Part shown: piece by piece, positions 42,754 through 64,000 of the stretch
Layout: each line of letters opens with the position of its first letter
How positions within the stretch are numbered: position 1 is the first letter of the stretch
From: an uncultured Spartobacteria bacterium
GTDB lineage: Bacteria > Verrucomicrobiota > Verrucomicrobiia > Chthoniobacterales > Chthoniobacteraceae
Length of the DNA: 64,000 nucleotides
Assembly (NCBI GenBank): GCA_903882875.1
Contig: CAIRYQ010000010.1
Location: forward strand, 17,558 to 81,557
Direction of reading: 5' to 3'
Translations under genes and position numbers: made by a program
The notes under the pieces: model-generated
Databases searched by the model: none
What the model was told of the DNA's origin: nothing
The model's input: only the letters and a program-made list of their open reading frames with translations

Positions 42754-43434
42754 CTAAAACAGCTCCGGGCCGTCGTCCGGAGCGGGGCTCTTTGACGGAC
42801 GGGTGATCATGAGCTTAGGCGTAGGCGGGATTTCTTCGTAGAGCAATGCGTCGGCGGGGAGGCCGCGGCAGAGGTGCATGAGGTGGTCGTCAGCCAGCGG
42901 CTCATCGCCGAGCCAGGCGAGGGCGTCGGCAGGGTCGAGCACGACGGGCATGCGATCATGGAATTGCGCGGCCGTGGTGTTTGGTTCGGTCGTGACCATG
43001 GCGAAGCCGGTGGAACCGGAGCCGTCGGGATCCGCGTCCCACAGGCCCGCGACGAAGAACCATGTGTGCTCTTTGACGGTAAAGAGGACTTCGCCCTTTG
43101 CGCCGACAGGGCCGAGGCCAGGCTCGTAATAGCCGGTGGTGGGGATGAGGCAGCGGCGCTTCGCGGCGGATTGTTTCCATGTGGGCTTGGTGAGCAGGCC
43201 ATCGCGACGGGCGTTGGTGATGAACTGCGGTTTCTCTCTGGCGTAGAAGGGCCACACGCCCCATCGCATTTCAACGAGGACAGGTCCGCTGTCTTCACGC
43301 CGGATGATACGCGCCTTGCGCTTGGGGTAGATGTGCCCCTGCAAGGTGGGATTGCCGGGGATGTAGAGGCCGGGCACGGACACCCGGACGGCTTCTTCCC
43401 ACAGTTCCATCTGGTCGCGGTAGTGGTTGCACAT
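42754..43434 (-). CDS. SRAP-family abasic-site crosslinking protein (YedK/HMCES type)
   Basis: 226 residues from ATG 43434, giving the family's M-C-N start: Cys2 becomes the N-terminal nucleophile that bonds covalently to abasic sites in single-stranded DNA. Other conserved features: VEMRWGVWPFYA, ITNARRDGL (the N-A-R motif), RRCLIPTTGYYEP (catalytic Glu region) and FHDRMPVVLDPADALAWLG (active-site His). The upstream in-frame extension to 43533 lacks these features. It follows an unknown gene by 4 bp, and both are read away from the LexA operator, consistent with SOS control. Confidence 0.92.
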   Translation of the reverse strand: MCNHYRDQMELWEEAVRVSVPGLYIPGNPTLQGHIYPKRKARIIRREDSGPVLVEMRWGVWPFYAREKPQFITNARRDGLLTKPTWKQSAAKRRCLIPTTGYYEPGLGPVGAKGEVLFTVKEHTWFFVAGLWDADPDGSGSTGFAMVTTEPNTTAAQFHDRMPVVLDPADALAWLGDEPLADDHLMHLCRGLPADALLYEEIPPTPKLMITRPSKSPAPDDGPELF

Positions 43435-43438
43435 GGCG

Positions 43439-44044
43439 TCAGGCAGCGCCCGCGGGGTGCAGGCCGGGGAAACGATACACGGTGAGCTGCATCGTTGCGC
43501 CGTCGAGCACTTCTTCGGGCATGCCGGAATCAATGGCGCGCTTCAGCGCAAGGCGGAAGGAGCCGGCAGTCTCTCCGGCAGCGCCGCCCTCGACTTCGAC
43601 GACACCCGTGAAGTGGCCGCGCAGGTGTCGGGGAAAGGCGGGCGCGAAAGTGAAGACGACGGGTTTTGGGAAATACAGGTCGAGAGGTGGGGACATGCGG
43701 AGATTCACGGCCTCCTCGAAGCGGAACTGAAAGAGGGCTTGGAACGGGCCGGTCTGGCTGAACTGATCGAGCGCCTCGGGACTGGGCGCTTCTTCGGCGG
43801 CGGCGTCCACCTCGTAAATGAAATCGCAGCAAGCCATGAGCACTTGGTCGGCGAATTCCTCGAGGGACTCGTGCTCGTCGGCATCGAAGTCTGCGCTGAC
43901 CAGGACGCCGAGGCGTTTCTCATCGGGGCCAGCGAATGGATCCGGGATGGAGAGGGTGACCTTGTCGCGCGGCAATGGATCGGGGACGTACGGGAGCATT
44001 TCTGCGACTGTCATGCCGACGACGATCTCTGCGAACTGTTGCAT
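43439..44044 (-). CDS. Unknown protein in the LexA-controlled operon
   Basis: 201 residues with no motif that I recognise. It starts MQQFAEIVVGMTVAEMLPYV and is acidic in the middle (DADEHESLEEFADQ), with a more beta-like C-terminal half (LYFPKPVVFTFAPAFPRHL). There is no signal peptide or membrane helix. It begins 122 bp from the LexA operator and ends 4 bp before the SRAP start, so it is the first gene of a two-gene unit probably repressed by LexA. A role in damage tolerance is inferred from position only. Confidence 0.75.
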   Translation of the reverse strand: MQQFAEIVVGMTVAEMLPYVPDPLPRDKVTLSIPDPFAGPDEKRLGVLVSADFDADEHESLEEFADQVLMACCDFIYEVDAAAEEAPSPEALDQFSQTGPFQALFQFRFEEAVNLRMSPPLDLYFPKPVVFTFAPAFPRHLRGHFTGVVEVEGGAAGETAGSFRLALKRAIDSGMPEEVLDGATMQLTVYRFPGLHPAGAA

Positions 44045-44166: not shown

Positions 44167-44190
44167 GATACCGTTCATTTGAACGGTATC
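44167..44190. promoter_or_regulatory. LexA operator (GTTC-N4-GAAC type) with overlapping promoter
   Basis: A perfect inverted repeat: arms GATACCGTTC and GAACGGTATC with spacer ATTT, ending 9 bp before the lexA ATG at 44200. A -35-like TTGACG at 44147-44152 puts the operator over the -10 region. A GTTC-N4-GAAC core agrees with the LexA motif reported for Verrucomicrobia. It could control lexA, with the polymerase fusion downstream, and the divergent unknown-SRAP pair. Confidence 0.85.
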
Positions 44191-44199
44191 CCGCGCACC

Positions 44200-44808
44200 A
44201 TGCTTACAGATCGACAACGAGAGATTTTGGACTTCATCCGCGAGGCACGCCGGTCACGCGGAGTCACGCCAACGAGCCGGGAGATTCAGCAACACCTCGG
44301 CCTCGCCAGCCAGTCCACGGTGATCGACCATCTGCGTGCTCTTGAAAACAAGGGTGCGCTGAGACGTGAGCCCCACAAGGCACGTGGATTGGTGCCCACC
44401 GACGAATACCGCGCTCAGCGGATGATCGAGATCCCAATTTACGGCACCATCCCCGCCGGGCTGCCCGCCGATGAGAGCCAGCAAGCCGATGGCTGCGTTT
44501 CGGTGGACGTGGAGACGCTGCGGCTTCCCAAAGGGGCCCGTGTCTTCGCCCTCAAGGTCCGTGGCGATTCGATGAATGGTGCCGGCATTCTGCCGGGTGA
44601 CATTGTGGTGCTGGAATTCAAGGAGGCGAAGTCCGGTGACATCGTTGCCGCTCTCATTGATGGCGAGACGACGCTGAAGCGCTACGTGGTGCAGCGCGGC
44701 AAGCCGTTCCTCAAGGCGGAGAATCCGCGCTACACAAATCTCATCCCGGCACAGGAACTCGTCATCCAAGGCGTGCAGATCGCGCTGTTGCGGGTGCTCA
44801 AACGGTAA
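44200..44808 (+). CDS. lexA: LexA repressor
   Basis: 202 residues. The winged HTH is at residues 1-65 (LTDRQREILDFIREARRSRG, GLASQSTVIDHLRALENKGA). The self-cleavage bond is A86-G87 in TIPAGLPAD, and the S24 peptidase dyad is S124 (RGDSMNGAGI) and K160 (GETTLKRYVV). LexA represses SOS genes and cuts itself when RecA filaments form. ATG 44200 is preferred to an upstream ATG within the operator. The operator lies directly upstream (autoregulation), and the polymerase fusion gene follows after 110 bp on the same strand. Confidence 0.96.
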   Translation: MLTDRQREILDFIREARRSRGVTPTSREIQQHLGLASQSTVIDHLRALENKGALRREPHKARGLVPTDEYRAQRMIEIPIYGTIPAGLPADESQQADGCVSVDVETLRLPKGARVFALKVRGDSMNGAGILPGDIVVLEFKEAKSGDIVAALIDGETTLKRYVVQRGKPFLKAENPRYTNLIPAQELVIQGVQIALLRVLKR

Positions 44809-44918: not shown

Positions 44919-47900
44919 ATGATCGTTCACCTCGACGCCGACGCATTTTTTGCGTCCGTCGAGCAGGCCGCCGATCCGAAGCTGAGAGGCAAGCCGGTGG
45001 CGGTCGGCGGCGACAGACGCGGCATCATCGCCTCGGCGAGCTACGAGGCGCGGAAGCTCGGCATCTACACGCCGATGCCCACGGCACGGGCGCGGAAGCT
45101 GTGCCCGCGGCTCATCGTGCTGCCGGGTGATTTCGAGAAATACGAACAGTTCTCGAAGTTCATGTTTTCCTACGCCTACGACTTCACACCCGAGGTGGAG
45201 ATCGCATCGATCGACGAGGGCTATTTCGATTTGCGCGGCCATCACAAACACCCGCCGCGTGAGGTCGCGGAAATCATCCGGCGGGCGATCCGGCAGAGCC
45301 TGAAGATCACCGTGTCCGAGGGCATCGCCTCGAACAAACTGATCTCGCAGGTCGCATCGAAGCTCCGCAAGCCGGCGTGCTTTCTGGAAGTTCCGGATGG
45401 TGAGGAACGAAGCTTTCTCGCTCCGCTGCCGAACAAGTGGCTGCCCGGCGTCGGGCCGAAACTCGCGGGCACGCTGAATACGGCCGGCCTCGCCATCATC
45501 GAGCAAATCGCAGGCATGCCCGCCGACATGCTGGCGCTGCTCGTGGGAAGCTACGCACCGCAGCTCCGGGCATTTGCAAACGGTGTGGACGAGCGCCCCG
45601 TGGTGCGTGAGCCATCGGATGCCAAGAGCTACGGTGAGCAGGACACCTTCGCCGAGGACGTGACGGACGAGGCATTCATCTTCGCCAAGCTCCGCAGCAT
45701 CGCGGACCGGCTTGCGGCAAAGGTGCGTGAGGACGGGAAGAGCTTTCGCACGGTGACGCTCAAGCTCCGGTACAACGACATGCAGGACGTCACCCGGAGC
45801 GTGAGTCTTGGGGAGCCCGCGGATCTCGAACAGGACATCTACCCGTTGCTGCCGGCGCTTGTTCGCAAGGCATGGGATCGCCGCGTGAGCATCCGCATGG
45901 TGTCGCTGCGACTGTCGGGCATCTACGGCGGCATCTTCCGCAGCGAGCTGGCGCTCGATGAGCAGAGCCGCAAGCGCGAGAACGAGCAGCGGCTCGCGAA
46001 GGTGATCGACGGCCTGCGCGGCGACCACTCGATCATGCGCGGCCATGATCTGTGGCTCAAACAGCGGGAGGGAAAGCCACGCGCCGACACTGAGCGAACG
46101 CACACGCGAAAGCCGGTCACACCGACGAAGTCCCGCGTCCGCGATTTCGTTCCGCTCAACGTCAAAAGCCATTACGACTTCCTCGATTCGGCGCTCTCGA
46201 TTCCGGCGATCATCGAGGCAGCGCAAGAGACGGGAGCGAAGGCGCTCGCCATCACCGATCCCAATTTGCACGGGGCGGTCGAATTCTTCACGGCGGCACG
46301 CGACGCCGGGATCAAACCCATCATCGGCGCGGAGGTCACCAGTGATGGCCATCCGCTGAATCTCTACGTTGAAAATGCACAGGGCTACGCGAACCTCTGC
46401 CGACTTCTGACTTCGCCAGCCATTACGGCCGCGTTGTTGCAAACGCATAGAGAGGGACTGATTGCCGTGGATGCGGCCCGCGTGGCCCTTCCTGAAATTC
46501 GTTATCGCTCCCCTGCTGACCGTCAGAGGTTCGACATCATCCAGAGCATCAGAACGCTCACACGGCTGCATGAGCCGCATCCCGACAAGCGACGAGGTGA
46601 TTTACACTGGCCCGTGCCGGCTGAAGTCGGGGCGCGATGGAGTGACGATGCCATGCGGGCCACTCACGAGATCGCGGATCGGTGCAATTTCGCCTTCGAG
46701 TTTGGCCGGCTCCGTTTTCCACGATTCACGCCGGACGACGGCACGACACCGCACGACTTCCTCGCACGACTCGCCTTTGAGGGTCTTCACCAGCGCTACG
46801 GCGACCGGTCGCATTTGCACGAAGCGCAGCTCCGCGAGGAACTCGGGATGATCGCCGAGGTCGGATACGAGGAATACTTCCTTACGACCTGGGGCATCCT
46901 GCAGGAGTGCCGGCGTCGCGGCATCGCGTGGATCACACGGGGAAGCGCGGCGGATTCACTCGTCTGCTACTGCCTTGGAATCTCCGGAGTCTGCCCGATC
47001 CGGTTCGAGCTGTATTTCCGGCGCTTCCTCAACCGCGAGCGCATGGCGCTCAACAAACTGCCGGACATCGACATTGATTTTGCCCACGACCGCAAAGACG
47101 ACGTGGTGGACTTGATCTTCGAGCGATACGGGCCGCAGCACGCCGCCGTGGTTGGCGGCTTCAACACGTATCAGGGCCGCTCCGCCGTGGCCGACATCGC
47201 CAAGGTGCTCGGCGCTTCCGAATTTCAAATCCGGCGCCTCACCGGCCACATCCCGCACACGTCCGCGGCACACGTCGCTGAAGCCGTCTCGCAGGCCCAG
47301 GAATGCAAGGAAGGCCCGTGGGGCGAGGAGCCCTACAAGACCGCACTGGACATGGCGGCATTCCTCGACGGGTTTCCACGCCATGCGAAAATGCACCCAT
47401 GCGGCATCGTGCTGTCGCGTGATCCGATTGCATCGCTGACTCCCACATTCACGAGCGCGAAGGGCTACCCGACCACGCATTTCGACATGGATGCCGTCGA
47501 GAGTGTCGGCTTGGTGAAGATGGATATTCTCGCGCAAGGCGGGCTGGCCGTCATCCGCGACAGCCTTCAACTGATCGCTGAAAAAGGCGTCACACCCGAC
47601 TTGGAAAACCTCCAGCCGTGGGAGGACAAAAACATCTGGCAGATGATCGCCTCGGGTGATGCGCGTGGCGTCCACCACATCGAAAGCCCCGCCATGATTT
47701 CACTCGCAAGGATGTGCAACGTGCGGGACATCGACTGCCTCATCGCGATCGTCTCCGTCATCCGGCCGGGCGCGGCCAACGGTTCCAACAAGACACAATT
47801 CGCACGACGGGCGCAGGGGCTTGAGCCGGCAGATTACACGCATCCGAGCCTTGAGCCGGCGCTGCGCTCGACCTTCGGTGTCATCGCCTACGAGGAACAC

Positions 47901-49016
47901 ATCCTCCAAATCTGTGAGGCATTCGCCGGACTTCCGGCGGGCCGTGCCGACATGCTTCGCCGGGCGCTGGTGAAACAAAAGACGGCGGTGATCGAGGAGA
48001 TTGGGCGCGAGTTCATCGAATCAGCCCGTGCAATTGGCCGCGCTGAACAGGACATCGTGAACGTATGGAATCTCGTCTCAGGATTCCAAGGCTACGCATT
48101 CTGCCGGGCGCACAGCACCGCTTACGGGGTCGAGGCGTATCAGGGGGCGTGGCTGAAGCGGTATCACGCCGCGGAATTCCTCGCGTGCGTGCTCAGCAAC
48201 GGCAAAGGCTTCTACTCAACGCTCGCCTACACGCTTGAATGCCGGCGGCTCGGCATCAATTTCCTTCCGCCCGACGTGAATGCTTCGCGCTGGAATTTCA
48301 CGCCGCAGGCCGATGCCATCCGCGTGCCGCTGCGTGTCATCAAGGATCTCACTTCCGCCACGCTGGAGCGCTACCAACGCGAGCGGGAGCGCAGGACATT
48401 TGCATCCCTACGGGATTTTTACGACCGCGTAAATCCCACCTCAGCAGAACTGCTCAACTTGATCCGCGTCGGCGCATTCGACGGATTCGGGGAGCCGCGC
48501 ACCGCGCAGTTCTGGCAACTGCAATACCTCGCGCAGTGGCCGAAAGCCCAAGGGTATCTTTTCCAGAGCGATGAGGCTGCACCGCTGCCTGAAATTCCTC
48601 TTACAGAGCCGGACGGCACCCAACGTCTCCGGGATGAAATGGAATTGCTCGGGTTCACCGTGAGTGGTCATCCGCTCGAACAATTCCCCGGCATTGCGTG
48701 GGACACGTATTGCCCGATTCGTGATCTCGCCAATTACGCCGGGCAGCGTGTCACGACCTGCGGGCTCATCATTGCCGATCGCTCGCATCACCAAGTCTCA
48801 GGCGACCGGATGAAGTTCATCACGATCTGCGACCACACCGGCATCATCGAGTGTGAGATTTTCGCGGCCACGTATCGGCGATTCGGGCTGGCGACTGTTC
48901 AATTCGCAGTCGTTGAGGTTGAAGGCACGGTCACAGCCTTCGAAAACGGTTTGGGCTGCACGCTCGACGTGCAACGAGTTGGAAGACCGCGTGGCTGGGG
49001 CGCTGCATCATCCTGA
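44919..49016 (+). CDS. Fusion of Y-family DNA polymerase (DinB type) and DnaE-type polymerase
   Basis: 1365 residues from ATG 44919, which gives the canonical DinB start MIVHLDADAFFASVEQ. Residues 1 to about 360 form a complete Y-family polymerase with metal ligands D6, D99 and E100 (ASIDEGYFDL). After a charged linker, residues about 410-1230 are a C-family DnaE polymerase: degenerate PHP domain (NVKSHYDFLDSALSIP, AITDPNLHGAVEF), palm with D716/D718/D720 (LPDIDIDFAHDRKDD), HPCGIVLSRDPI and FCRAHSTAYGVEAYQGAWLK. An OB domain ends it (about 1275-1355). No stop or frameshift separates the parts. It resembles an ImuB-DnaE2 mutasome in one chain, but with Y-family active-site residues kept. It is probably SOS-induced with lexA. 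Confidence 0.92.
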   Translation: MIVHLDADAFFASVEQAADPKLRGKPVAVGGDRRGIIASASYEARKLGIYTPMPTARARKLCPRLIVLPGDFEKYEQFSKFMFSYAYDFTPEVEIASIDEGYFDLRGHHKHPPREVAEIIRRAIRQSLKITVSEGIASNKLISQVASKLRKPACFLEVPDGEERSFLAPLPNKWLPGVGPKLAGTLNTAGLAIIEQIAGMPADMLALLVGSYAPQLRAFANGVDERPVVREPSDAKSYGEQDTFAEDVTDEAFIFAKLRSIADRLAAKVREDGKSFRTVTLKLRYNDMQDVTRSVSLGEPADLEQDIYPLLPALVRKAWDRRVSIRMVSLRLSGIYGGIFRSELALDEQSRKRENEQRLAKVIDGLRGDHSIMRGHDLWLKQREGKPRADTERTHTRKPVTPTKSRVRDFVPLNVKSHYDFLDSALSIPAIIEAAQETGAKALAITDPNLHGAVEFFTAARDAGIKPIIGAEVTSDGHPLNLYVENAQGYANLCRLLTSPAITAALLQTHREGLIAVDAARVALPEIRYRSPADRQRFDIIQSIRTLTRLHEPHPDKRRGDLHWPVPAEVGARWSDDAMRATHEIADRCNFAFEFGRLRFPRFTPDDGTTPHDFLARLAFEGLHQRYGDRSHLHEAQLREELGMIAEVGYEEYFLTTWGILQECRRRGIAWITRGSAADSLVCYCLGISGVCPIRFELYFRRFLNRERMALNKLPDIDIDFAHDRKDDVVDLIFERYGPQHAAVVGGFNTYQGRSAVADIAKVLGASEFQIRRLTGHIPHTSAAHVAEAVSQAQECKEGPWGEEPYKTALDMAAFLDGFPRHAKMHPCGIVLSRDPIASLTPTFTSAKGYPTTHFDMDAVESVGLVKMDILAQGGLAVIRDSLQLIAEKGVTPDLENLQPWEDKNIWQMIASGDARGVHHIESPAMISLARMCNVRDIDCLIAIVSVIRPGAANGSNKTQFARRAQGLEPADYTHPSLEPALRSTFGVIAYEEHILQICEAFAGLPAGRADMLRRALVKQKTAVIEEIGREFIESARAIGRAEQDIVNVWNLVSGFQGYAFCRAHSTAYGVEAYQGAWLKRYHAAEFLACVLSNGKGFYSTLAYTLECRRLGINFLPPDVNASRWNFTPQADAIRVPLRVIKDLTSATLERYQRERERRTFASLRDFYDRVNPTSAELLNLIRVGAFDGFGEPRTAQFWQLQYLAQWPKAQGYLFQSDEAAPLPEIPLTEPDGTQRLRDEMELLGFTVSGHPLEQFPGIAWDTYCPIRDLANYAGQRVTTCGLIIADRSHHQVSGDRMKFITICDHTGIIECEIFAATYRRFGLATVQFAVVEVEGTVTAFENGLGCTLDVQRVGRPRGWGAASS

Positions 49017-52583: not shown

Positions 52584-55052
52584 ATGAGCGACACCAACTA
52601 CACAGCGTTTTTCAAAGCAGCTACCGGCGGAAGCCACTCGCCATACGACTATCAATCCCGCCTCGCACTTGGTGAGGCTGATTCACGGAACAACGGCACG
52701 GACTGCCACTCACGATTGATCAATATCCCCACCGGCCTCGGCAAGACCGCAGCCGTCGTCCTCGCGTGGATGTGGAATCGCGTCGTCCGCAAAGACCCTG
52801 CATGGCCTCGCCGTCTCGTCTATTGCCTGCCTATGCGGACGCTCGTGGAGCAGACGCGCGATGAAGTGGAGAAATGGCTCAAAGTTCACGGCCTTCTTTG
52901 GGACGAAAAGGAGTCGCATGACGGAAAAGTCGCCCTTCACATCCTCATGGGCGGCGAAGACGCGGGCGAATGGGACATCCATCCCGAACGCGAAGCCATC
53001 CTCATCGGCACGCAAGACATGCTGCTCTCCCGCGCTCTGAACCGCGGCTACGGCATGAGCCGCTACCGCTGGCCCATGCACTTCGGCTTGCTGAATAACG
53101 ACGCGCTTTGGGTGATGGATGAGACGCAGTTGATGGGCGTGGGCGTGGAAACCAGCGCACAGCTCGACGGCTTCCGCGCTCGCGAGGAATGGCGAACGCA
53201 CGGGAGCTGCCCGACTTGGTGGATGAGCGCCACGCTGGAACAAATGCGGCTCGCCACCGTGGATCATCCGGCTCCGGCTCACGGCTGGCCTAGCGTCACA
53301 CTCAGCGAAAGCGAACGCGCGTCGGGGAGGGCGCACGATTTGATCGAGGCGAAAAAGGCCGTCTCAGCGTGCTCCGTTACGCTCACCCCTGCGAACAAAG
53401 CGAGCTATGCCAAAGACCTCGCCGCACTAATCAACCAGCGCCACCAGCAAGGCCCGCTCACGCTTGTCGTCGTCAACCGCGTCAACCGTGCCCGTGAAAT
53501 CTACGACGCCCTGACCAGCGGGAAAAAACCACTGCGCGATCCGAAGCAAGTGGCGCTCATTCACTCGCGCTTCCGCCCGATGGATCGTGCGCGACACACC
53601 AAGCTATTGTTTGGGGAGGGAGATCGCATCGTCATCGCTACGCAAGCGGTTGAGGCAGGCGTAGATGTCTCGGCCCGCCTGCTCATCACCGAACTGGCAC
53701 CGTGGTCGTCGCTTGTTCAGCGCATCGGGCGCTGCAATCGCCGCGCGGATATTCCCGATGCGGAAGTGCTGTGGGTGGACGTTCAGCCCAAAGACGAAAA
53801 GGACGACCTGCAACTTCCTTACACGAAGGCCGAATTGGATCAGGCTCGCACCGCCATCGCCGAGATCACCGATGCCTGCCCTCGCATTCTCAGCGGAATC
53901 GTTGTTCCAGAAACTCCCGTTGTTCGGCCCGTCATCCGTCGCCGCGATCTCGTGGATCTTTTCGACACGACCCCCGACCTCTGCGGGCAAGACCTCGATG
54001 TCTCCCGCTACATCCGCGATGGTGAAGACAGTGATGTGCAGTTTTTCTGGCGGGAGTTTGAAGGCGACACGCCCACCGACAAAGAGCCTCCGCCGCAGCG
54101 AGCGGAACTCTGCCGCGTTTCCATCGGCGAGGCGGCGAAGTTTCTTGGCAAAGCCGACGCTTGGACTTGGAACCCGCTGGACGAAAACTGGACGGAAGCC
54201 AAACGCCCGCGCCCCGGTGCCGTTTATCTCGTGAGCGTCGCCAGTGGCGGCTACCACGACGACCTCGGCTGGACGGGCGACGCAAAGCACAAGCCCACGC
54301 CGCATCCTCCACAGGAAGGCACGTGCGAATCCTACGCTGGTAACCGCCTTTCCTTTACCCGCGACTGGCAAACGCTCGCCGACCACTCGGGGCTGGTCGT
54401 CGCTGAGATGAAGGCCATCGCCGCCGCGCTCGCTCTCAATGGTGAGGATGCCGCCACACTCCACATTGCTGCGCAGTGGCACGATGTCGGCAAGGCGCAT
54501 GAGTGTTTCCAAGCGATGCTCCGGCTCGGGCCGTATCAGCCGGAAGATCCAGCCGGGTTTTACGCAAAATCGAAAAACCCATTTTCGTTTCGTCGGGACG
54601 ACAGGACGCGCCCCGGCTTCCGCCACGAACTCGCTTCCGCTCTGGCCTGGTTGCTTGCCGGGCCGTCCGATGCTCCCGAGCGCGACCTCGTTGCTTATCT
54701 CATTGCAGCACACCACGGGAAAGTCCGTCTCTCCATTCGCTCGCTGCCAAACGAGCCGGTGCCGACCGGCGAGGAACGACTCTTCGCGCGCGGCATCTGG
54801 CACGGCGACACACTCCCCGCCGTCGCCATCGGCGACATCACCACGCCCGCCATCACACTCGACCTCAGCTTTATGAAAATGGGCGCTGGTGAGCACGGCC
54901 CGTCTTGGCTTGCCCGCACCGTTGCCCTCCGCGACCGCCTCGGTCCGTTCCACCTCGCCTATCTGGAGACACTCCTTCGCGCCGCAGATGCCCGCGCCTC
55001 TGCGGGGGCTAACTCGCCTGCGCTCGATAACGCCAACACGCTAAAAACATGA
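52584..55052 (+). CDS. cas3: Cas3 helicase-nuclease, type I-G (C-terminal HD)
   Basis: 822 residues. A superfamily 2 helicase occupies residues 1 to about 480, with Walker A P49-T-G-L-G-K-T55, the Walker B/DEAH-like V-M-D179-E180-T, and motif VI-like SLVQRIGRCNRRADI. The HD nuclease is C-terminal: H633-D634 in AAQWHDVGKAHECFQAML and AHHGKVRLSIRS. A C-terminal HD is a feature of type I-U/I-G Cas3, as opposed to the N-terminal HD of most type I systems. Cas3 unwinds and degrades DNA bound by the Cascade complex. The stop overlaps the next gene (ATGA). Confidence 0.93.
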   Translation: MSDTNYTAFFKAATGGSHSPYDYQSRLALGEADSRNNGTDCHSRLINIPTGLGKTAAVVLAWMWNRVVRKDPAWPRRLVYCLPMRTLVEQTRDEVEKWLKVHGLLWDEKESHDGKVALHILMGGEDAGEWDIHPEREAILIGTQDMLLSRALNRGYGMSRYRWPMHFGLLNNDALWVMDETQLMGVGVETSAQLDGFRAREEWRTHGSCPTWWMSATLEQMRLATVDHPAPAHGWPSVTLSESERASGRAHDLIEAKKAVSACSVTLTPANKASYAKDLAALINQRHQQGPLTLVVVNRVNRAREIYDALTSGKKPLRDPKQVALIHSRFRPMDRARHTKLLFGEGDRIVIATQAVEAGVDVSARLLITELAPWSSLVQRIGRCNRRADIPDAEVLWVDVQPKDEKDDLQLPYTKAELDQARTAIAEITDACPRILSGIVVPETPVVRPVIRRRDLVDLFDTTPDLCGQDLDVSRYIRDGEDSDVQFFWREFEGDTPTDKEPPPQRAELCRVSIGEAAKFLGKADAWTWNPLDENWTEAKRPRPGAVYLVSVASGGYHDDLGWTGDAKHKPTPHPPQEGTCESYAGNRLSFTRDWQTLADHSGLVVAEMKAIAAALALNGEDAATLHIAAQWHDVGKAHECFQAMLRLGPYQPEDPAGFYAKSKNPFSFRRDDRTRPGFRHELASALAWLLAGPSDAPERDLVAYLIAAHHGKVRLSIRSLPNEPVPTGEERLFARGIWHGDTLPAVAIGDITTPAITLDLSFMKMGAGEHGPSWLARTVALRDRLGPFHLAYLETLLRAADARASAGANSPALDNANTLKT

Positions 55053-56002
55053 ACAGCAACATGGACCTCAACCAGCACCACGCTCTGGCACAGCGCGCCC
55101 TTGAGCTTGGCCGCAGCAATGACCCCGCCAGCGTGCCGGAGCTTATCCGCCTTCTTTCTATGCCATCTGCCGAGATTCGCCGCCTCGCCGCGTCGGCTCT
55201 CTCCAAACTGGCTGACTTCGGCGCGGACCGAGTTTCTGCCGTCGCCGCCCTCGCGCCAGTCGCCCTCCGCGACCCCCATCCGCAAGTCCGCCAGTATGCC
55301 CTCAAGGCTCTCAAATGCTGTGGCACTGCCGCCAGCGCCCACCTTCACGACCTCGACGACCTCGCGGCAAACGAAGACACCAAAGACTACGTCCGCCGCG
55401 CCGCCCACTCCGCCGCCACCGCCATCCGCGAAGCCGTCCGGCTCGCCGAGGCCGGTGCCGTCCACCGCTGTGCCCGCTGCGGCAAAGACGTCACCCCCGA
55501 CGAACACACCCGCAGCCAGCAAGCCTTCCAGCGCACCTTCTGCGACGCCTGCTTCGACACGGTCTATCTCGACCGCCGCAACTTCGAGACCAAAGTCGAA
55601 CTCCACAAAACCATCATCGCCAATGCAGGCACCCTCGTGCAGTCCGACGGCGAACGGCTGCTCGCCGATTGGTTCACCGCCCATCACATCGGCTATCGCT
55701 ACGACGAAAAATTCCGCATCCTCAGCGGCCACGCCATCCGCCCCGACTTCTACCTGCCCGAGCTGGACGTCTATGTCGAATACTGGGGCATGGACACCGC
55801 CGACTATAAAATCGGGATGCTCAAAAAGCAGCAGCTCTACCAGCAGGAGGGAAAGCGCCTCATCTCCATCTACCACGCCGACAAGCCCCGCCTCGACGCC
55901 CTCCTCCGCGCCAAGCTCGCATTCTACGGCTACACCATCCCGTCCGCATCCGCGTCAGCAAACGCCCGTGAGTCAGCCCCCGAAAACCACCCGGCCCCAT
56001 AA
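55049..56002 (+). CDS. HEAT-repeat / zinc-ribbon / PD-(D/E)XK nuclease inside the cas operon
   Basis: 317 residues. Residues about 10-135 form HEAT-like helical repeats (PASVPELIRLLSMPSAEIRR, VALRDPHPQVRQYALKALKC). A zinc ribbon follows with C141-x2-C144 and C165-x2-C168. Residues about 195-295 are a PD-(D/E)XK nuclease-like domain: E202 (SDGERLLADWF), D233 (AIRPDFYLPELD), E244 (YVEYWG), then a Lys/Gln-rich KKQQLYQQEGKRLISIY. It overlaps the cas3 stop by 4 bp and lies 8 bp before csx17, so it is translated with the cas genes. It is not a core type I-G component; an accessory role in interference or DNA repair is inferred. Confidence 0.82.
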   Translation: MNSNMDLNQHHALAQRALELGRSNDPASVPELIRLLSMPSAEIRRLAASALSKLADFGADRVSAVAALAPVALRDPHPQVRQYALKALKCCGTAASAHLHDLDDLAANEDTKDYVRRAAHSAATAIREAVRLAEAGAVHRCARCGKDVTPDEHTRSQQAFQRTFCDACFDTVYLDRRNFETKVELHKTIIANAGTLVQSDGERLLADWFTAHHIGYRYDEKFRILSGHAIRPDFYLPELDVYVEYWGMDTADYKIGMLKKQQLYQQEGKRLISIYHADKPRLDALLRAKLAFYGYTIPSASASANARESAPENHPAP

Positions 56003-56010
56003 ACCAGACT

Positions 56011-58320
56011 ATGCCCAAACTTACACTCCAAGGCTGCTCACCCGTCCCGCTCGCACACTATTTGAAGGCGCTCGGAATCCTCCGACTCGTCGCGGAATCT
56101 GCGCATGGTGACGCTGCTGCCACTGCTCACTGGAGCGGAAACAACTTCGTTCTCACGTCGCGATTCGACCGTGAACCGCTCCTGTCGGAATTCTTCCTCC
56201 GCGATTACCAGCCAACGCCACTCATGGTTCCGTGGAGCGGCGGCGACTTTTTCGCGGTGAACCGTGAGAAGCCCGCAAACTCCTTCGATAAAACGCCGAC
56301 ATCAGCGCGTGTCATTGAATCAATTCTCAGCACCGATTCACCACGCTTCGAGGACTATCGCGCCGCGTTGCGAGCAACATTCTCCGCAATGGATAGAGCC
56401 GGCGTGAGGGTGAAGAAAGACATCGAAGGTTCCGGTGGCCCGCAACGCCGACTTAAAGCGGAAATGCTGAAATCGCTGCGAAACTCTCTGCCGGATGGGG
56501 CGCTCGCGTGGATGGACGCCGCCGCTGTCATTGAGCCGGATGCGGTTGCCTTCAACTCTTTGCTGGGCGGTGGCGGTGGCAGCGACGGCAACAGCCATTT
56601 CTCCGACAATTTCATGCAGAGCCTTTGGATGGCACTGCCCGAGTTCGACACTCAAAGGAAAAAGGCCGTGAAAGCCATCGGAGAAAGCGCCGTATTCAAT
56701 TCCCGCGCTGCCCTTGATGAATCGTTGTTCGGATTTCAGGGAGCGGGAACCAAGATTCCCGAACTCTCCCCTGTGCTGTTCGATTCGACGCGCGTAGGCG
56801 GCCCAAATCAAACGACGGGATTCGAGGCGAAGGCAGGCAGCAATCCGTGGGATTTCATCTTGATGCTTGAAGGCTCCGTTCTTTTCGCCGGGGCGATTGG
56901 GCGCAAACTCGACGACCGCCGCGAACCCTCTGCGCGATTCCCATTCCTGTTCCAAGCATCGCCTGTCGGCCTCGGCTCGTCGTATCTCGGCGAATCCTCC
57001 GGGCGCGAACTCTGGCTTCCGCTCTGGTCGAAGCCAGCGTCGTTCGCGGAGATTCGCGCCTTACTCGGCGAAGGAAGAGTGGAAAAGCACGGACGCATGG
57101 CGAAGCGCGGCACTGACGCCTTTGTTGCCGCTGCTCAGCTTGGTTTTGACCGAGGAATCACCGCGTTCCAGCGCGTTGGCTTTTTCAAGGGCCGGATTGG
57201 TGGCGACAACTATTTCACCGCGATTGACCAGGGCCGAATCGCTCCGCGCCGCAATCAATCTGTGGATCTACTCAGAGATATTGACGACTGGCTCACCAGA
57301 CTCGCGTCTGCCTCAACAAGCGATAAGTGCCCGGCTTCGGTCGCGGCGAAAGTTGTCGCTTTGGAACGACGGATTGCCGATTTGGCAGTCACCTCACAGA
57401 AGGAAGCACCGCCCCGCTTGATTGCCGTTCTCGCCGCACTCGGTGCGACTGAACGCGCACTGGCAAAGAGTTACAAGTGGACGACCGAGAGCGCCTACCT
57501 CCGCCCGCTGCATGGCTTGAAGCCGCAATGGCTCACCGACGCGGACGACGGCTCGCCGGAATTCCGCCTCGCCGCCTCCCTCGCCGGGATGAGTGCTTGG
57601 CTGGGGAAAGAGACGCTCTATTTCCGCCAGCACCTCGAACCACTCGAAATGCGCGCGAACAAGGAACGCTCGTGGGCAAGTTGGGACAAGACGCCGGGCG
57701 ACGACGTCGTCTGGCACGACGGCGACCTCGCCGATTCGCTCAACGCCATCCTCTCCCGGCGACTCATCCGCGTGGAAAAATCCGGCGCACGCGGCTGGCC
57801 AGACTGCTCGCCGTGCGTGGCAAAGCTCGCAGACATCACTGCCTTCATCGAAGGCCGCACGAACGACGCGCTGCTCGCCGACCTCATCTGGGGCCTCAGC
57901 CTCATAGACTGGCAGGCTGTAACCCATCAACACCACGAGACCCGCGTCCGCGAGCGCGAGCGAGTCAGCGACACAGCGGAGCACATCCCCCACGGCAGCC
58001 GCGACGACGAGCAACACGCCATCCCCTCCGCATTCTACGCCCTCCTGCGCCTCTGCTTCCGCGCAGCACGCCCGGACGACACCATTCCGCTCCACCCCGC
58101 CATCCTCAATCGAGCGATGAGCGGCGACGGCACCGCCGCCTCCGAACTCGCCTCCCGCGGCCTCCGCGCCTCGGGTAAGGCACCGCTCGTCGCCAGCCTG
58201 CCCGTTCGTGGCGACATCGCCCGTCGCACCGCCGCGGCGATGTTGTTTCCCATCAGCAATCGCGACCTCCATCTCCTCGAACACATGATCCTGAAAAAAC
58301 AAAACCAACAAAATACATGA
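56011..58320 (+). CDS. csx17: Csx17 (Cas8-type large subunit, type I-G)
   Basis: 769 residues, matching Csx17 (the Cas8 equivalent of type I-U/I-G): starts LTLQGCSPVPLAHYLKALGI, with TPLMVPWSGGDFFAVNREKP, GVRVKKDIEGSGGPQRRLKA, NPWDFILMLEGSVLFAGAIG and RIGGDNYFTAIDQGRIAPRR. It is the presumed large subunit for PAM recognition and Cascade assembly. The stop overlaps the csb1 start (ATGA at 58317), indicating coupling. Confidence 0.92.
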   Translation: MPKLTLQGCSPVPLAHYLKALGILRLVAESAHGDAAATAHWSGNNFVLTSRFDREPLLSEFFLRDYQPTPLMVPWSGGDFFAVNREKPANSFDKTPTSARVIESILSTDSPRFEDYRAALRATFSAMDRAGVRVKKDIEGSGGPQRRLKAEMLKSLRNSLPDGALAWMDAAAVIEPDAVAFNSLLGGGGGSDGNSHFSDNFMQSLWMALPEFDTQRKKAVKAIGESAVFNSRAALDESLFGFQGAGTKIPELSPVLFDSTRVGGPNQTTGFEAKAGSNPWDFILMLEGSVLFAGAIGRKLDDRREPSARFPFLFQASPVGLGSSYLGESSGRELWLPLWSKPASFAEIRALLGEGRVEKHGRMAKRGTDAFVAAAQLGFDRGITAFQRVGFFKGRIGGDNYFTAIDQGRIAPRRNQSVDLLRDIDDWLTRLASASTSDKCPASVAAKVVALERRIADLAVTSQKEAPPRLIAVLAALGATERALAKSYKWTTESAYLRPLHGLKPQWLTDADDGSPEFRLAASLAGMSAWLGKETLYFRQHLEPLEMRANKERSWASWDKTPGDDVVWHDGDLADSLNAILSRRLIRVEKSGARGWPDCSPCVAKLADITAFIEGRTNDALLADLIWGLSLIDWQAVTHQHHETRVRERERVSDTAEHIPHGSRDDEQHAIPSAFYALLRLCFRAARPDDTIPLHPAILNRAMSGDGTAASELASRGLRASGKAPLVASLPVRGDIARRTAAAMLFPISNRDLHLLEHMILKKQNQQNT

Positions 58321-59366
58321 ACCTAGAAGCACTGAAAAACCAACCGCGCCTGCTGCTCAAAGCGACGCTCGAACCGCAACTCGGACATTTATTCCAACCA
58401 ACCGGCTTCCCCGACCTCGGTGCCGCCACATTCAAAGCCATTGGCAAGGATGGAACCACGCGTTCCATGCTACTGGTTGAGTCCCACCAGAGCATGGGAA
58501 ACAACTTTGAAAAAGTTTGCTGGGATGAGGCGACTGGTAAACTGGTCACTGAGTTGGAGGGTCTGCCCTACGTCGAATCCACGCTCCCTGACGGAACGAA
58601 AACCAACACCATCCTTGAAGCCCATCGGCTAAACTCGCCCTACATCGTGAACTCTGCGGAGTTCGCCGAAATCGAAAAGGCGATTGGCTTTGAGAAGAAC
58701 AAACCATTTGATCGGCGGAAGCTCGCATCGGCTCTTATGAAATACGATCCGAGCAGCCTGCTTCATGGAATCTTTCTGGAGAAAGTGGGCGGAGTTGTTC
58801 GCCTGCCTCGTTCCCTGACCAGTTTCATAGAAGCGGAAGACGTCAACCCAGTCGCTTTTGGCGGCGTGAAGCTCGACCGAATCCAACCGGAAAGCACCGG
58901 CGACAAGACGCCCTACGGCAAGGCCAAGGATGGCTACGGAAATGTTCCGCATCACATCGAAGATTTCACAGGGAGCATTTACGCCTACTTCAATTTGGAC
59001 TTGGCGCTCCTACGCGGCCTCGGGTTGTCGGACGGCTCTCCAGACCTGCTTGTCTGGCTGGCGTTCTTCAAGGTTCGCAAATTCCTATCCGAAGGCTTGA
59101 ACCTTCGTTCTCGTTGCCAACTACAGCTAGTCTCGATTGAGACCGTCGGCGCTCTCAAAGGCCGTTTTGAACTGCCAGAACTTGAAACAATAGTTCCTGA
59201 GTTGAAGCGCCACATTCAGGGTGCTGCCGCACTTTTCTCGAAATCACCATTGCCAGTGAAATACGACCAGAAGCTCGCAGCGAAACGCAGCAAGGCGAAA
59301 GACAAAGCCAAAGACGACGGCGGCGATGGAGCAGACACAGCGGGAGAGGATATATCAGCCACCTAA
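58317..59366 (+). CDS. csb1: Csb1 (Cas7, GSU0053 family)
   Basis: 349 residues, the type I-G backbone subunit that coats the crRNA. Segments: LGHLFQPTGFPDLGAATFKA, MLLVESHQSMGNNFEKVCWD (RRM region), FLEKVGGVVRLPRSLTSFIE and IYAYFNLDLALLRGLGLSDG. The C-terminus is Lys/Ala/Asp-rich and low in complexity (KRSKAKDKAKDDGG). It overlaps csx17 by 4 bp and is followed 4 bp later by csb2. Confidence 0.92.
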   Translation: MNLEALKNQPRLLLKATLEPQLGHLFQPTGFPDLGAATFKAIGKDGTTRSMLLVESHQSMGNNFEKVCWDEATGKLVTELEGLPYVESTLPDGTKTNTILEAHRLNSPYIVNSAEFAEIEKAIGFEKNKPFDRRKLASALMKYDPSSLLHGIFLEKVGGVVRLPRSLTSFIEAEDVNPVAFGGVKLDRIQPESTGDKTPYGKAKDGYGNVPHHIEDFTGSIYAYFNLDLALLRGLGLSDGSPDLLVWLAFFKVRKFLSEGLNLRSRCQLQLVSIETVGALKGRFELPELETIVPELKRHIQGAAALFSKSPLPVKYDQKLAAKRSKAKDKAKDDGGDGADTAGEDISAT

Positions 59367-59370
59367 AGCC

Positions 59371-60999
59371 ATGACCGTTCTTGAACTGCGATTTCCCACT
59401 GGGCGTTTCCACGCCACACCGTGGGGGCGGCACGTCAACGAAGGCGCTGTCGAATGGCCGCCTTCGCCGTGGCGCATCCTCCGCGCACTCATCGCAACGT
59501 GGTATTTGAAAGCCCGCGATGCGGGAGACTGTGACTTGGTGCGTTCGCTTGTGCAGAAGCTCTCTGAGCAGCCACGATTCTGGCTGCCCCCAGCGACAAC
59601 GGGACACTCGCGGCACTACATGCCGGGCAACGAGGCGACCCACAAAGAAAGCGGTGCCGTAGTGTTTGGCCCTGCGAAAACCAAGGTCTTCGATACCTTC
59701 ATCCAACTTGCCGAGGACTCCGCAGTGTTCGTCGTGTGGAATGTGGACTTGCCCGGCGCCGAACGCACCGTTCTGCAAACGCTCGCCGAACGGCTCTCCT
59801 ACCTTGGCCGCGCCGAGAGCTTGGTCATCGCGCACCTGCTCGATAGTGACGCCGCCTTTCAGGCTGCGAAAACGCCCGCACACCGCGAAGCCGCACCGCT
59901 GCCCAGCACCGATCCACTGCCATCCGGCCAAGAACTTGTCCGCTTGCTGGCTCCGATGCTCCCGACTGCCTACGACGAATGGCGCGATGACTTCATGACG
60001 AAGGCGGAAACCGCCCTCGGCCCCGAGCCCACCGCCGCGCAGAAGAAGCTGCCGAAGCTGCCGGACGACCTCTTTGCCGCACTCCACGCCGATACCGGCG
60101 ACCTGCAAGCCGCGGGCTGGAATCTCCCGCCCGGCGCTGCCTTCGTGAATTTCATCCGCTCGGAAAACGCCTTCGCTCCCGCGCCCCGCCCGCGAGCGCC
60201 CCGCAAAGGCCCGCTGCTCACCGTGGCCCGCTACGCCATCACCAGCACCGTCGCGCCGAGCATCACGCAGGCGATTTCCATCGGCGACCGCGTGCATGAT
60301 GCGCTCTGCAAATGGTCCGACCAAGGCAAAGGCCGCGCGTCCGTCTTCACCGGCCTCGATGCGGATGGCAAACCGCTCGTTGCCCAGCATCAGCACGCGC
60401 ACATTTTCTGCGAAGCCAATGGGCCGCGCGATGCTGTCACCCACATCACCGTATGGGCGGAGATGGGCTTTGATGAAGAAGCCTGCCTCGCGCTTCGCAG
60501 ACTCAACAAAGTATGGGGCCACGGCGGACATGATATTCGCCTCGTTCTCCAAGGCATCGGCCAGCTAGGTGATTTCTTGGACTGCGCGCTTGTCCGCCCG
60601 GCGAAAATCTGGCGCTCCGCCACGCCCTTCGTGTCCACCCGACACGCCAAAACATTCCGCGATGGCAGGCCGAAAATAGACTCGGACAATGGCTGGCAAG
60701 ATGGCTCCGCCGCTCACGACCTGCTGCGACTGCTCGCCCTGCATGGGCACGGTGCGGATGCCAAAATCCAGCAGATCAACGAGAGGGAGCGCCCGTATCA
60801 GTTCGGTGAACGCAGCCTGCGCTCATTGCAATTTCAAACCGGACGCAAAGACGGAGCAGGATGCCGCGGCCACGACAGCGGGGCAGCGTTCACCATCACC
60901 TTTCCCGATAAACGCCCAGGTCCATTCGCGCTAGGCTACGGTGCCCACTTCGGCCTCGGCCTCTTTGTTCCGTCGGATCGCGAGCTTGCCAGCGTGTAG
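59371..60999 (+). CDS. csb2: Csb2 (Cas5-Cas6 fusion, GSU0054 family)
   Basis: 542 residues from ATG 59371, giving the family start MTVLELRFPTGRFHATPWGR; the frame is open upstream inside csb1. The N-terminal half is the Cas5-like part (VEWPPSPWRILRALIATWYL). The C-terminal part is Cas6-like, ending in a Gly-rich loop region (KRPGPFALGYGAHFGLGLF) and a candidate catalytic His in GRASVFTGLDADGKPLVAQHQHAHIF-type sequence, here split for length. In type I-G this fused protein processes pre-crRNA and caps the 5' handle. Confidence 0.9.
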   Translation: MTVLELRFPTGRFHATPWGRHVNEGAVEWPPSPWRILRALIATWYLKARDAGDCDLVRSLVQKLSEQPRFWLPPATTGHSRHYMPGNEATHKESGAVVFGPAKTKVFDTFIQLAEDSAVFVVWNVDLPGAERTVLQTLAERLSYLGRAESLVIAHLLDSDAAFQAAKTPAHREAAPLPSTDPLPSGQELVRLLAPMLPTAYDEWRDDFMTKAETALGPEPTAAQKKLPKLPDDLFAALHADTGDLQAAGWNLPPGAAFVNFIRSENAFAPAPRPRAPRKGPLLTVARYAITSTVAPSITQAISIGDRVHDALCKWSDQGKGRASVFTGLDADGKPLVAQHQHAHIFCEANGPRDAVTHITVWAEMGFDEEACLALRRLNKVWGHGGHDIRLVLQGIGQLGDFLDCALVRPAKIWRSATPFVSTRHAKTFRDGRPKIDSDNGWQDGSAAHDLLRLLALHGHGADAKIQQINERERPYQFGERSLRSLQFQTGRKDGAGCRGHDSGAAFTITFPDKRPGPFALGYGAHFGLGLFVPSDRELASV

Positions 61000-61020
61000 T
61001 TTCGTGCATAGCACGCTGCC

Positions 61021-63507: not shown

Positions 63508-63726
63508 CCAGCGATGAAACCGGGGCTCAGACTCCCCAGTTCTTTGACATTCCAAACGAACGCGAGCGGCAAGGTGCCGATGGCACTCCCCGTGGCCGCT
63601 CGCGCACTGATGATAAGCGACTTCCGCTGGAAGTGGCATTACTGCGCACGAGCATGCTTGGAAATAGCGAGACCGCTCGCAACCAACGTGATTGCATCCG
63701 CAAACCCAAACGCTTACAGAAGGTCT
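63508..63726 (+). promoter_or_regulatory. CRISPR leader
   Basis: 219 bp between cas2 and the first repeat, on the side where cas1/cas2 sit, as expected for the leader that drives pre-crRNA transcription and receives new spacers. It contains GTTCTTTGACATTCC at about 63540-63554, resembling a leader or promoter element. An 81-codon open frame crosses it and the first repeat but is not gene-like. Confidence 0.7.
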
Positions 63727-64000
63727 AATTCCGCGCCCCCCGTGGCGCGGCTCCGTTGAAGCGCCCCATCACTGAGACTCGGCAGAATGATGGATTGAAA
63801 TTCCGCGCCCCCCGTGGCGCGGCTCCGTTGAAGCATCGCTCCATGATCCTTTTTCAAACAGCGAGCTTTTAATTCCGCGCCCCCCGTGGCGCGGCTCCGT
63901 TGAAGCCAATATCAGCAATCTCGCGCGCAGTTGCTAATTCTGAATTCCGCGCCCCCCGTGGCGCGGCTCCGTTGAAGCAGACTTGCGAGAGCGCAGATGA
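63727..64000 (+). CRISPR. CRISPR array, 36-nt repeats and 36-nt spacers, continues past the window
   Basis: Four identical 36-nt repeats begin at 63727, 63799, 63871 and 63943, a strict 72-nt period, with three complete 36-nt spacers and a 22-nt start of a fourth. The repeat starts AATTCCGCGC, ends GTTGAAGC and contains a 7-bp stem CCGCGCC/GGCGCGG with a 6-nt loop CCCCGT. The final 8 nt (GTTGAAGC) are the expected crRNA 5' handle. Identical repeats at the leader end indicate an intact, recently active array. Spacers show no obvious match elsewhere in the window. Confidence 0.98.

Follow-up and report, generated by a model that had tools for sequence, protein, structure and literature searches.

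A 64,000-nucleotide stretch of the genome of an uncultured Spartobacteria bacterium (contig CAIRYQ010000010.1, positions 17,558 to 81,557; hereafter the window) carries a gene in which a Y-family DNA polymerase (PolY) and a DnaE-type polymerase are joined in a single chain. This polY-dnaE fusion gene, defined by its open frame, its Pfam domains and its fused homologues, extends on the forward strand from an ATG at 44919 to a stop codon ending at 49016 and encodes 1365 amino acids. It follows a lexA gene, and catalytic residues of both polymerases are conserved throughout its family. The product is probably a DNA-damage-induced translesion enzyme: nucleotides would be inserted opposite lesions by the Y half, and the primer then extended by the DnaE half.

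The frame is uninterrupted, as the initial annotation of this DNA had stated, and Pfam recognizes domains of both a DinB-like and a DnaE-like polymerase: IMS (residues 5–148), IMS_C (236–335), PHP (413–520), DNA_pol3_alpha (614–872), DNA_pol3_finger (876–1038) and HHH_6 (1112–1195). An OB domain had also been announced; it has a Pfam match (tRNA_anti-codon, residues 1278–1344) that remains slightly below threshold, with 26.1 bits for a cut-off of 27. The first part of the protein aligns with solved structures of DinB-type polymerases (best E-value 2.3e-59) and the second with those of Thermus and E. coli Pol III alpha (best E-value 2.5e-117). On the forward strand, the Y-family half (residues 1–338) occupies 44919–45932, the PHP domain 46146–46478, the DnaE polymerase core, delimited by Pfam and by comparison with the Pol III alpha of E. 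coli and of Thermus, 46479–48098, the (HhH)2 region 48252–48503 and the OB-fold domain 48750–48950.

The two-domain architecture was searched in protein databases. All of the best 120 of 2191 homologues were fused. A second search, initiated with a lone DnaE and considering the best 120 of 4961 homologues, added 27 fused proteins to these, along with 88 DnaE that are not fused. In all, at least 148 of the 236 homologues fetched are fused. The named fused hits are nearly all from Verrucomicrobiota, with one partial record named Paceibacterota. Among the source labels of fused homologues are "DNA polymerase III subunit alpha", "error-prone DNA polymerase" and "DNA-directed DNA polymerase III PolC", so that the Y half is hidden in annotations. 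An assembly or annotation artefact has practically no chance of accounting for the fusion. The genome is a draft in 129 contigs, and nothing in favour of an artefact was found. The idea is refuted by the at least 148 independent fused proteins and by a second copy in the same genome, both copies being stop-free. A frameshift or assembly join between codons 360 and 410 was specifically checked and is absent: 121 of 121 aligned homologues, as well as the second genomic copy, cross this stretch in one chain.

Catalytic residues were placed by alignment to DinB and DnaE of E. coli K-12. The Y-family acids D6, D99 and E100 (codons starting at 44934, 45213 and 45216), which had been reported as present, align with D8, D103 and E104 of E. 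coli DinB. For the DnaE half, the triad D716/D718/D720 had been proposed. D716 and D718 (codons starting at 47064 and 47070) do align with D401 and D403 of E. coli DnaE, but the third aspartate is D869 (codon starting at 47523; D555 in E. coli) and not D720. Residues D6, D8, D99, E100, D716 and D869 are invariant in the 121 aligned fused proteins, and D718 is kept in 120 of them, the remaining one having a gap. Four of the 27 further fused proteins are devoid of N-terminal residues and look truncated, not mutated. Between the two genomic copies, the ratio of nonsynonymous to synonymous substitution rates (dN/dS) is 0.03 for the Y half, 0.09 for the polymerase core, 0.09 for the OB fold and 0.295 for the linker. 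Two dead or drifting halves would not be expected to look like this, and the conservation fits an enzyme that extends its own insertions.

The Y half might instead be a scaffold, like ImuB, leaving the synthesis of DNA to the DnaE half alone. It does occupy the place of ImuB in the ImuA-ImuB-DnaE2 order, and it ends with a RecA-like motif (see below). This possibility is nonetheless quite improbable, given the conservation of D6, D8, D99 and E100 in 121/121 proteins, the Y-half dN/dS of 0.03 and the phylogenetic grouping of the Y half with active PolY and not with ImuB.

In the PHP domain, the four positions occupied by histidine in 5/5 Verrucomicrobiota DnaE1 are replaced (P412, N414, K416 and P448), while D423, D447 and E472 are retained. 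The loss of the H-x-H-S motif, noted from the sequence at the outset, is therefore real, but it is ordinary, as loss of the PHP active site is usual in error-prone DnaE (PMC12926913). The DnaE half thus has the disrupted PHP site that is a criterion for DnaE2. It is also additional to the replicative enzyme: the genome encodes a separate DinB and a separate DnaE1, the latter a 1242-residue frame on contig C11 that falls in the DnaE1 clade. Because these two polymerases are present and the PHP histidines are lost, a dedicated error-prone role is proposed for the fusion.

The little finger of the Y half is followed by the sequence ELALD (residues 343–347), at the position and spacing of the clamp motif QLNLF of UmuC, and then by a stretch resembling the N-terminus of RecA (residues 359–378). 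Both were delineated by conservation and by the spacing in the tail of E. coli UmuC, which is matched, and lie together at 45945–46052 on the forward strand. In the RecA-like motif, D364, M373, R374 and G375 are kept in 118–121 of the 121 proteins. When compared with RecA, the motif of three of the four other fused members examined was equalled by few shuffled sequences (1/500 for P0041, 0/500 for P0116, and 5/500 for P0098, for which the value against UmuC was 482/500), and that of one lone PolY (L016) by 0/500 with RecA and 15/500 with UmuC. ELALD is a degenerate clamp motif. Both leucines are kept in 119/121 proteins, residue 343 is a glutamine in just three of 121, and the commonest letters at residue 347 are D, E and T; the Y half has no QxxLF-like motif. 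In contrast, the ImuB clamp motif of the mycobacterial mutasome is essential (PMC10421592). In the DnaE half, the pattern Qxx[LMI][FL] is found within residues 1195–1230 in 99 of the 121 aligned members, a raw count with no chance control. It reads QGYLF in the window protein (48549–48563, forward strand), and its counterpart in E. coli DnaE is QADMF at 920–924. Since the PolY motif is degenerate and the pattern is frequent in the DnaE halves, it is probably the DnaE half that now contacts the clamp.

The halves are connected by a flexible linker (residues 379–409; 46053–46145, forward strand), recognized by its low predicted local distance difference test scores (pLDDT), its variable length and the highest dN/dS of the protein. 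Counted from G375 to residue 410, it spans 27 to 168 residues, with 27–60 in 117/121 proteins, and Pfam finds no domain between residues 335 and 413. The ImuB-C domain is about 80 residues long (PMC3765255). Linkers of at most 60 residues are short for it, and no ImuB-C was assigned to the fusion. In the modelled ImuA-ImuB-DnaE2 complex, the PHP domain is bound by ImuB-C (PMC12926913), and by analogy the covalent tether may replace this contact. An AlphaFold model of residues 1–1195, built with an alignment of 65 of the best 120 of 2191 homologues, has a mean pLDDT of 79.3 and a predicted template modelling score (pTM) of 0.60; pLDDT is below 50 in linker residues 391–407. Among the structure matches to the model, Pol III alpha chains align over about 900 columns, while Y-family polymerases appear lower in the list, over about 340 columns and with poor superposition.

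It is unlikely, though deserving of consideration, that the fusion is just a tether: both polymerases would work, each with its own substrates or at its own time, and the common chain would provide equal dosage and shared recruitment instead of a handoff from insertion to extension. The linker, which varies more in sequence and length than any other part, suits a loose tether, and at L016 a Y half exists without a DnaE half. However, the architecture is maintained over the whole clade, and in the closest systems surveyed PolY and DnaE2 were modelled as one complex (PMC12926913).

The lexA gene (44200–44808, forward strand) was correctly placed immediately upstream by the initial annotation: 110 nucleotides separate its end from the ATG of the polymerase. 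Its product, an SOS repressor composed of a DNA-binding domain (PF01726) and an S24 peptidase domain (PF00717), scores 153 bits against TIGR00498, above the curated cut-off of 110.95. An Ala-Gly site, a serine and a lysine are visible by eye in the translation, and are presumed to have the roles of their counterparts in the LexA peptidase of E. coli. A perfect inverted repeat read in the sequence at 44167–44190, GATACCGTTCA-TT-TGAACGGTATC, ends 9 nucleotides before the lexA ATG and is a likely LexA operator. The candidate operator is CCGTTCATTTGAACGG in the window and TGTATTCCCATACA at the second copy of the fusion. Operators were searched as exact matches, so that weaker sites may exist. The pattern CCGTTCN4GAACGG has only two sites in the 5.78-Mb draft genome, at the window lexA and on contig C15, where it was rejected as a promoter site as it sits in the 3′ end of convergent frames. 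The pattern TGTATN4ATACA also has two sites, at the other two lexA genes, and the reversed-pattern controls have none. A family search retrieved three LexA in the genome, all of which lead a cassette, one cassette being decayed. The three cassettes thus display two operator palindromes (44167–44190 in the window; around 9019–9034 in L020; around 4708–4723 in L022). When the LexA of the window is compared with that of the second copy, on contig C111, the first 75 residues have a dN of 0.24 and the remaining ones a dN of 0.055. Each LexA seems to act chiefly on the cassette to which it belongs. The DNA-binding part of LexA has changed between the cassettes, and an operator switch after duplication is possible. 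A promoter scan found no sigma-70-like site, and the count of terminators was no better than in shuffled sequences.

The upstream region was compared at 12 fusion loci (window, C111, L009–L015, L018, L078 and L079). Same-genome duplicates were dropped (L025 and L036 as L009, L060 as L078, L062 as L079, L064 and L080 as L015), as were L026 and L037, where the contig begins within the gene, and the lone Y gene of L016. L017, with a lexA upstream, was left out as its contig ends in the Y half and the fusion is not shown. A LexA with its DNA-binding domain is encoded directly upstream on the same strand in 7 of the 12 loci (window, C111, L009, L010, L011, L014 and L018), with gaps of 27–115 nucleotides from the last aligned codon. 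At L012, lexA is 3.6 kb away, and a LexA box, TGTTCATTTGAACA, ends 2 nucleotides before the ATG of the fusion. At L013 (3784–4197) and L078 (5369–5818), the upstream gene encodes an S24 peptidase of 137 and 149 residues, respectively, without a DNA-binding domain. These peptidases share 59–65% identity with the window LexA in the region that aligns, match the UmuD and LexA models below both curated cut-offs, and are preceded by a TGTTCN4GAACA box 10 and 14 nucleotides before their ATG. LexA genes are found elsewhere in the two genomes, one in G439 and three in G238. It seems that these two cassettes are run by another LexA and carry a UmuD-like protein, which is probably a LexA minus its DNA-binding part. 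At L078, a gene for an SOS response associated peptidase (SRAP; 4563–5345) directly precedes the UmuD-like gene and the fusion. The TGTTCN4GAACA box also occurs at four lone-PolY loci and at L039. We take this box to be the Verrucomicrobia LexA box of Erill 2016, an article whose abstract reportedly mentions a mutagenesis cassette. From the operator-like inverted repeats and the lexA neighbours, we infer that the fusion is under SOS control by LexA.

The distribution of the fusion is patchy: 4 of 387 genomes sampled across the phylum have it, as do 2 of 40 in the family and 3 of 57 near relatives. In these counts, G060 was considered as a lone DnaE and not included; G344 was included, being split over two contigs with a Y frame that enters PHP; and a piece in G056, 52% identical to residues 985–1362 and running off the contig end, was left out. 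The window genome itself has two intact copies (on C10, the window contig, and C111) that are 91% identical. It also has two remains: contig C59 has a lexA with 55 codons of polY behind it, and contig C81 a C-terminal fragment interrupted by stops. In the decayed cassette L022 (5547–6161), an intact lexA is followed by 55 polY codons that enter an unrelated frame.

Such patchiness, the two intact copies beside two decayed remains, and operator types that, as exact matches, are almost confined to the lexA genes of the cassettes are also what would be left by a self-contained mutator cassette moving between hosts and of little importance to each. This explanation is improbable: no transposase, integrase or plasmid gene was recognized among six neighbours of the second copy and four of L009, and the fusion is under strong purifying selection. 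Mobile replicons point the same way. None of the nine plasmid records covering at least 80% of the query, in a search reaching 5000 records, contains a fused match; each half has a gene of its own, as shown by annotation or by frames, or by the listing alone for H3, H7 and H10. None of 1376 matching phage records covers at least 80% of the query, and four viral contigs match the DnaE part only, with 25–29% identity. An origin of the fusion from a phage or a plasmid was rejected, as records covering most of the query have no fused match.

ImuB was sought with a Verrucomicrobiota query (E-value up to 1e-10) in 16 genomes with the fusion or unfused relatives; none was found. The sole match was the fusion itself, in G238. 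Twelve of these genomes have a shown fusion, the others being G045, G060, G441 (with L016) and G442 (with L017). ImuB is thus found in 0 of 12 fusion genomes, compared with 38 of the 387 phylum genomes (E-value 1e-20), 30 of 57 relatives and 4 of 4 relatives with a lone PolY. This suggests that the fusion replaced the ImuB system, with the caveat of small numbers and of draft and related genomes.

Trees were calculated with chosen rows (41, 39 and 49). In the DnaE tree, a quick one, the 18 fused rows are on one side of a branch with 100% support in the Shimodaira–Hasegawa-like approximate likelihood ratio test (SH-aLRT). Their neighbours are nine lone DnaE, including rows from Bryobacteraceae and Acidobacteria (84% SH-aLRT), followed by a group with Planctomycetes rows and, further out, by DnaE of Desulfosarcina and Bacteroidota encoded beside polY. 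DnaE1 and ImuAB-linked DnaE2 fall elsewhere, so that the placement of the DnaE half sought at the outset gives one clade apart from both. A Streptomyces row, labelled DnaE2B from its genus only, joined the other DnaE2 on a long branch and was omitted from the second tree. In the Y tree, the fused Y halves are sister to lone PolY that follow lexA in the family of the host (L040, L041, L042 and L044). At L040 (8570–11365), lexA and polY are followed on the same strand by a gene for a Pol I-type 5′–3′ exonuclease. An unfused PolY of G045 (L039) is also inside the fused Y clade, with weak support. The same genome encodes a DnaE without PHP related to the fused clade (L038), the lexA-linked L039 being on another contig; the pair may be either a split form or a broken fusion. 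The trees fit a single fusion event within a lexA cassette, followed by loss and transfer, and do not fix the order of events.

The preferred reading, a single-chain translesion enzyme, would operate as follows. LexA would repress the cassette until its RecA-driven self-cleavage releases the expression of lexA and polY-dnaE. At a stalled fork, the RecA-like motif ending the Y half would dock on RecA; the Y half would insert opposite the lesion, leaving extension of the primer to the DnaE half. As the linker passes directly from the RecA-like motif to PHP, the tether would do the job of the ImuB-C/PHP contact, and the clamp would be held mainly through the QxxLF-like motif of the DnaE half, the Y motif being degenerate. 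The tethered extender could take the primer end without subunit exchange and, without proofreading by PHP, mismatches would be kept. Catalytic activity, handoff and RecA binding of the fusion are here predictions from sequence. A broader scenario can be sketched, to which slightly less than an even chance is given. It posits a natural single-chain mutasome, with inserter and extender both catalytic, that arose once, when a lexA-linked polY was joined to a DnaE from the lineage found in PolY operons, and that replaced ImuA-ImuB-DnaE2 in its Verrucomicrobiota hosts. This mutasome would travel with its own LexA and a private operator, so that several copies coexist in a genome without cross-control, and in some hosts LexA would have lost the DNA-binding domain and turned into a UmuD-like partner.

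Several observations weigh against the single-chain translesion enzyme or against parts of the scenario. At L016, the DnaE half was lost while lexA and the Y half were kept. As this lone PolY is nested among the fused Y halves, at least one fission must have occurred, and the fusion is reversible. In shuffling tests against RecA, the window protein's own RecA-like motif does not reach significance (41/500 shuffles; 5/500 against the UmuC tail) and is only suggestive; that of P0051 is not significant either (125/500 and 64/500 against RecA and UmuC, respectively). The degenerate clamp motif is shared by close lone PolY relatives and is therefore not tied to the fusion. The Y palm is poorly modelled, with pLDDT below 50 at residues 1–18 and 72–109, and with this weakness and a pTM of 0.60 the model gives no reliable relative placement of the two active sites. 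No LexA or LexA-like neighbour was detected at L015 and L079. Finally, the ImuB contrast is weak within the 57 relatives, with 0 of 3 for the genomes with a shown fusion (p about 0.1 by hand, ignoring kinship).

Other features of the window were recorded. The divergent neighbour of the cassette is a SRAP gene (42754–43533, reverse strand; PF02586, 119.7 bits); with L078, SRAP recurs beside the cassette. A 201-residue protein encoded at 43439–44044, which overlaps the start of the SRAP gene and is divergent from lexA, has no match in Pfam, NCBIfam or PHROGs. A type I-G CRISPR-Cas locus spans 52584–63207 and comprises cas3g, an unnamed gene for 317 amino acids (55049–56002), cas8g/csx17, csb1/cas7g, csb2 and cas4g-cas1g; a repeat array with 72-nucleotide spacing is found at the end of the window (63726–63978). 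No RNA family reached its gathering score in the window.

The initial annotation had compared the gene with the ImuA-ImuB-DnaE2 mutasome. The single chain, the two intact sets of catalytic residues and the lexA cassette stand, but the fusion is not that set run together, as both trees group its halves elsewhere. The fusion shares with ImuA-ImuB-DnaE2 a lexA-linked cassette and the pairing of a Y-family member with an error-prone DnaE without an intact PHP site. ImuB, however, is a separate and catalytically dead protein that has an ImuB-C domain and cannot do without its clamp motif (PMC10421592, PMC12926913), whereas the Y half of the fusion has its catalytic residues (D6, D99 and E100 in 121/121) and not the disrupted active site expected of a mutasome Y-family member, its linker is hardly long enough for ImuB-C, and none of the 12 fusion genomes yielded an ImuB. 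An ImuB-DnaE2 pair fused in place was rejected on the kept catalytic residues, the absence of ImuB-C and the two trees. The lexA2-imuA-imuB-imuC cassette of Pseudomonas putida likewise has its own LexA and forms one transcription unit (PMC3901139), and the apparent control of each cassette by its own LexA resembles that of lexA2-imuABC by LexA2 (PMC3901139). There, the proteins are separate and ImuB is inactive.

Closer to the fusion in the activity of the Y polymerase are the DnaE2B-PolY-RecA modules of Bacteroidetes (Cellulophaga algicola type), which have an active Y polymerase beside DnaE, and to whose PolY surveys attribute a RecA-NT motif (PMC6511836, PMC12926913). The plasmid DnaE rows of Emticicia and Persicobacter branch beside the fused clade and its lone relatives. 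These modules consist of two genes, which overlap by one base in the case of Emticicia dinB and dnaE, whereas the fusion is one chain, and the PolY clamp motif of Emticicia and Persicobacter is canonical (QINLF/QIDLF), in contrast to the degenerate motif of the fusion. The plasmid cassette lexA-DUF72-polY-dnaE of Desulfosarcina ovata has the same order, with lexA first, and its DnaE row adjoins the fused clade. It differs by having separate PolY and DnaE genes, an asparagine at the place of D6, and a PolY on a long branch joined to another. With Pol V of E. coli (UmuC/UmuD), the fusion shares the spacing of clamp and RecA-like motifs after the Y core and, at L013 and L078, an upstream S24 peptidase without DNA-binding domain, like UmuD. 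Unlike the fusion, Pol V has no DnaE half, and most fusion loci carry a full LexA instead.

Fusions of this kind are common in sequence databases. As for their being well described, no single-chain PolY-DnaE enzyme was met in the literature searched, which included parts of PMC12926913 and PMC6511836; Erill 2016 may mention it. The parent kind is the PolY-DnaE2 mutasome, of which the 2026 survey PMC12926913 distinguishes 11 DnaE2/PolY module types, described there as complexes of separate proteins. What is apparently new and undescribed is a conserved family with both catalytic polymerases in one chain. Studies of how translesion synthesis hands the primer from inserter to extender usually rely on separate subunits that exchange. 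In a natural chain with two sites, their stoichiometry and order are fixed; each site could be inactivated singly, and the handoff measured in one enzyme. Beside the 11 multi-subunit modules of the survey (PMC12926913), the fusion adds a single-chain type.

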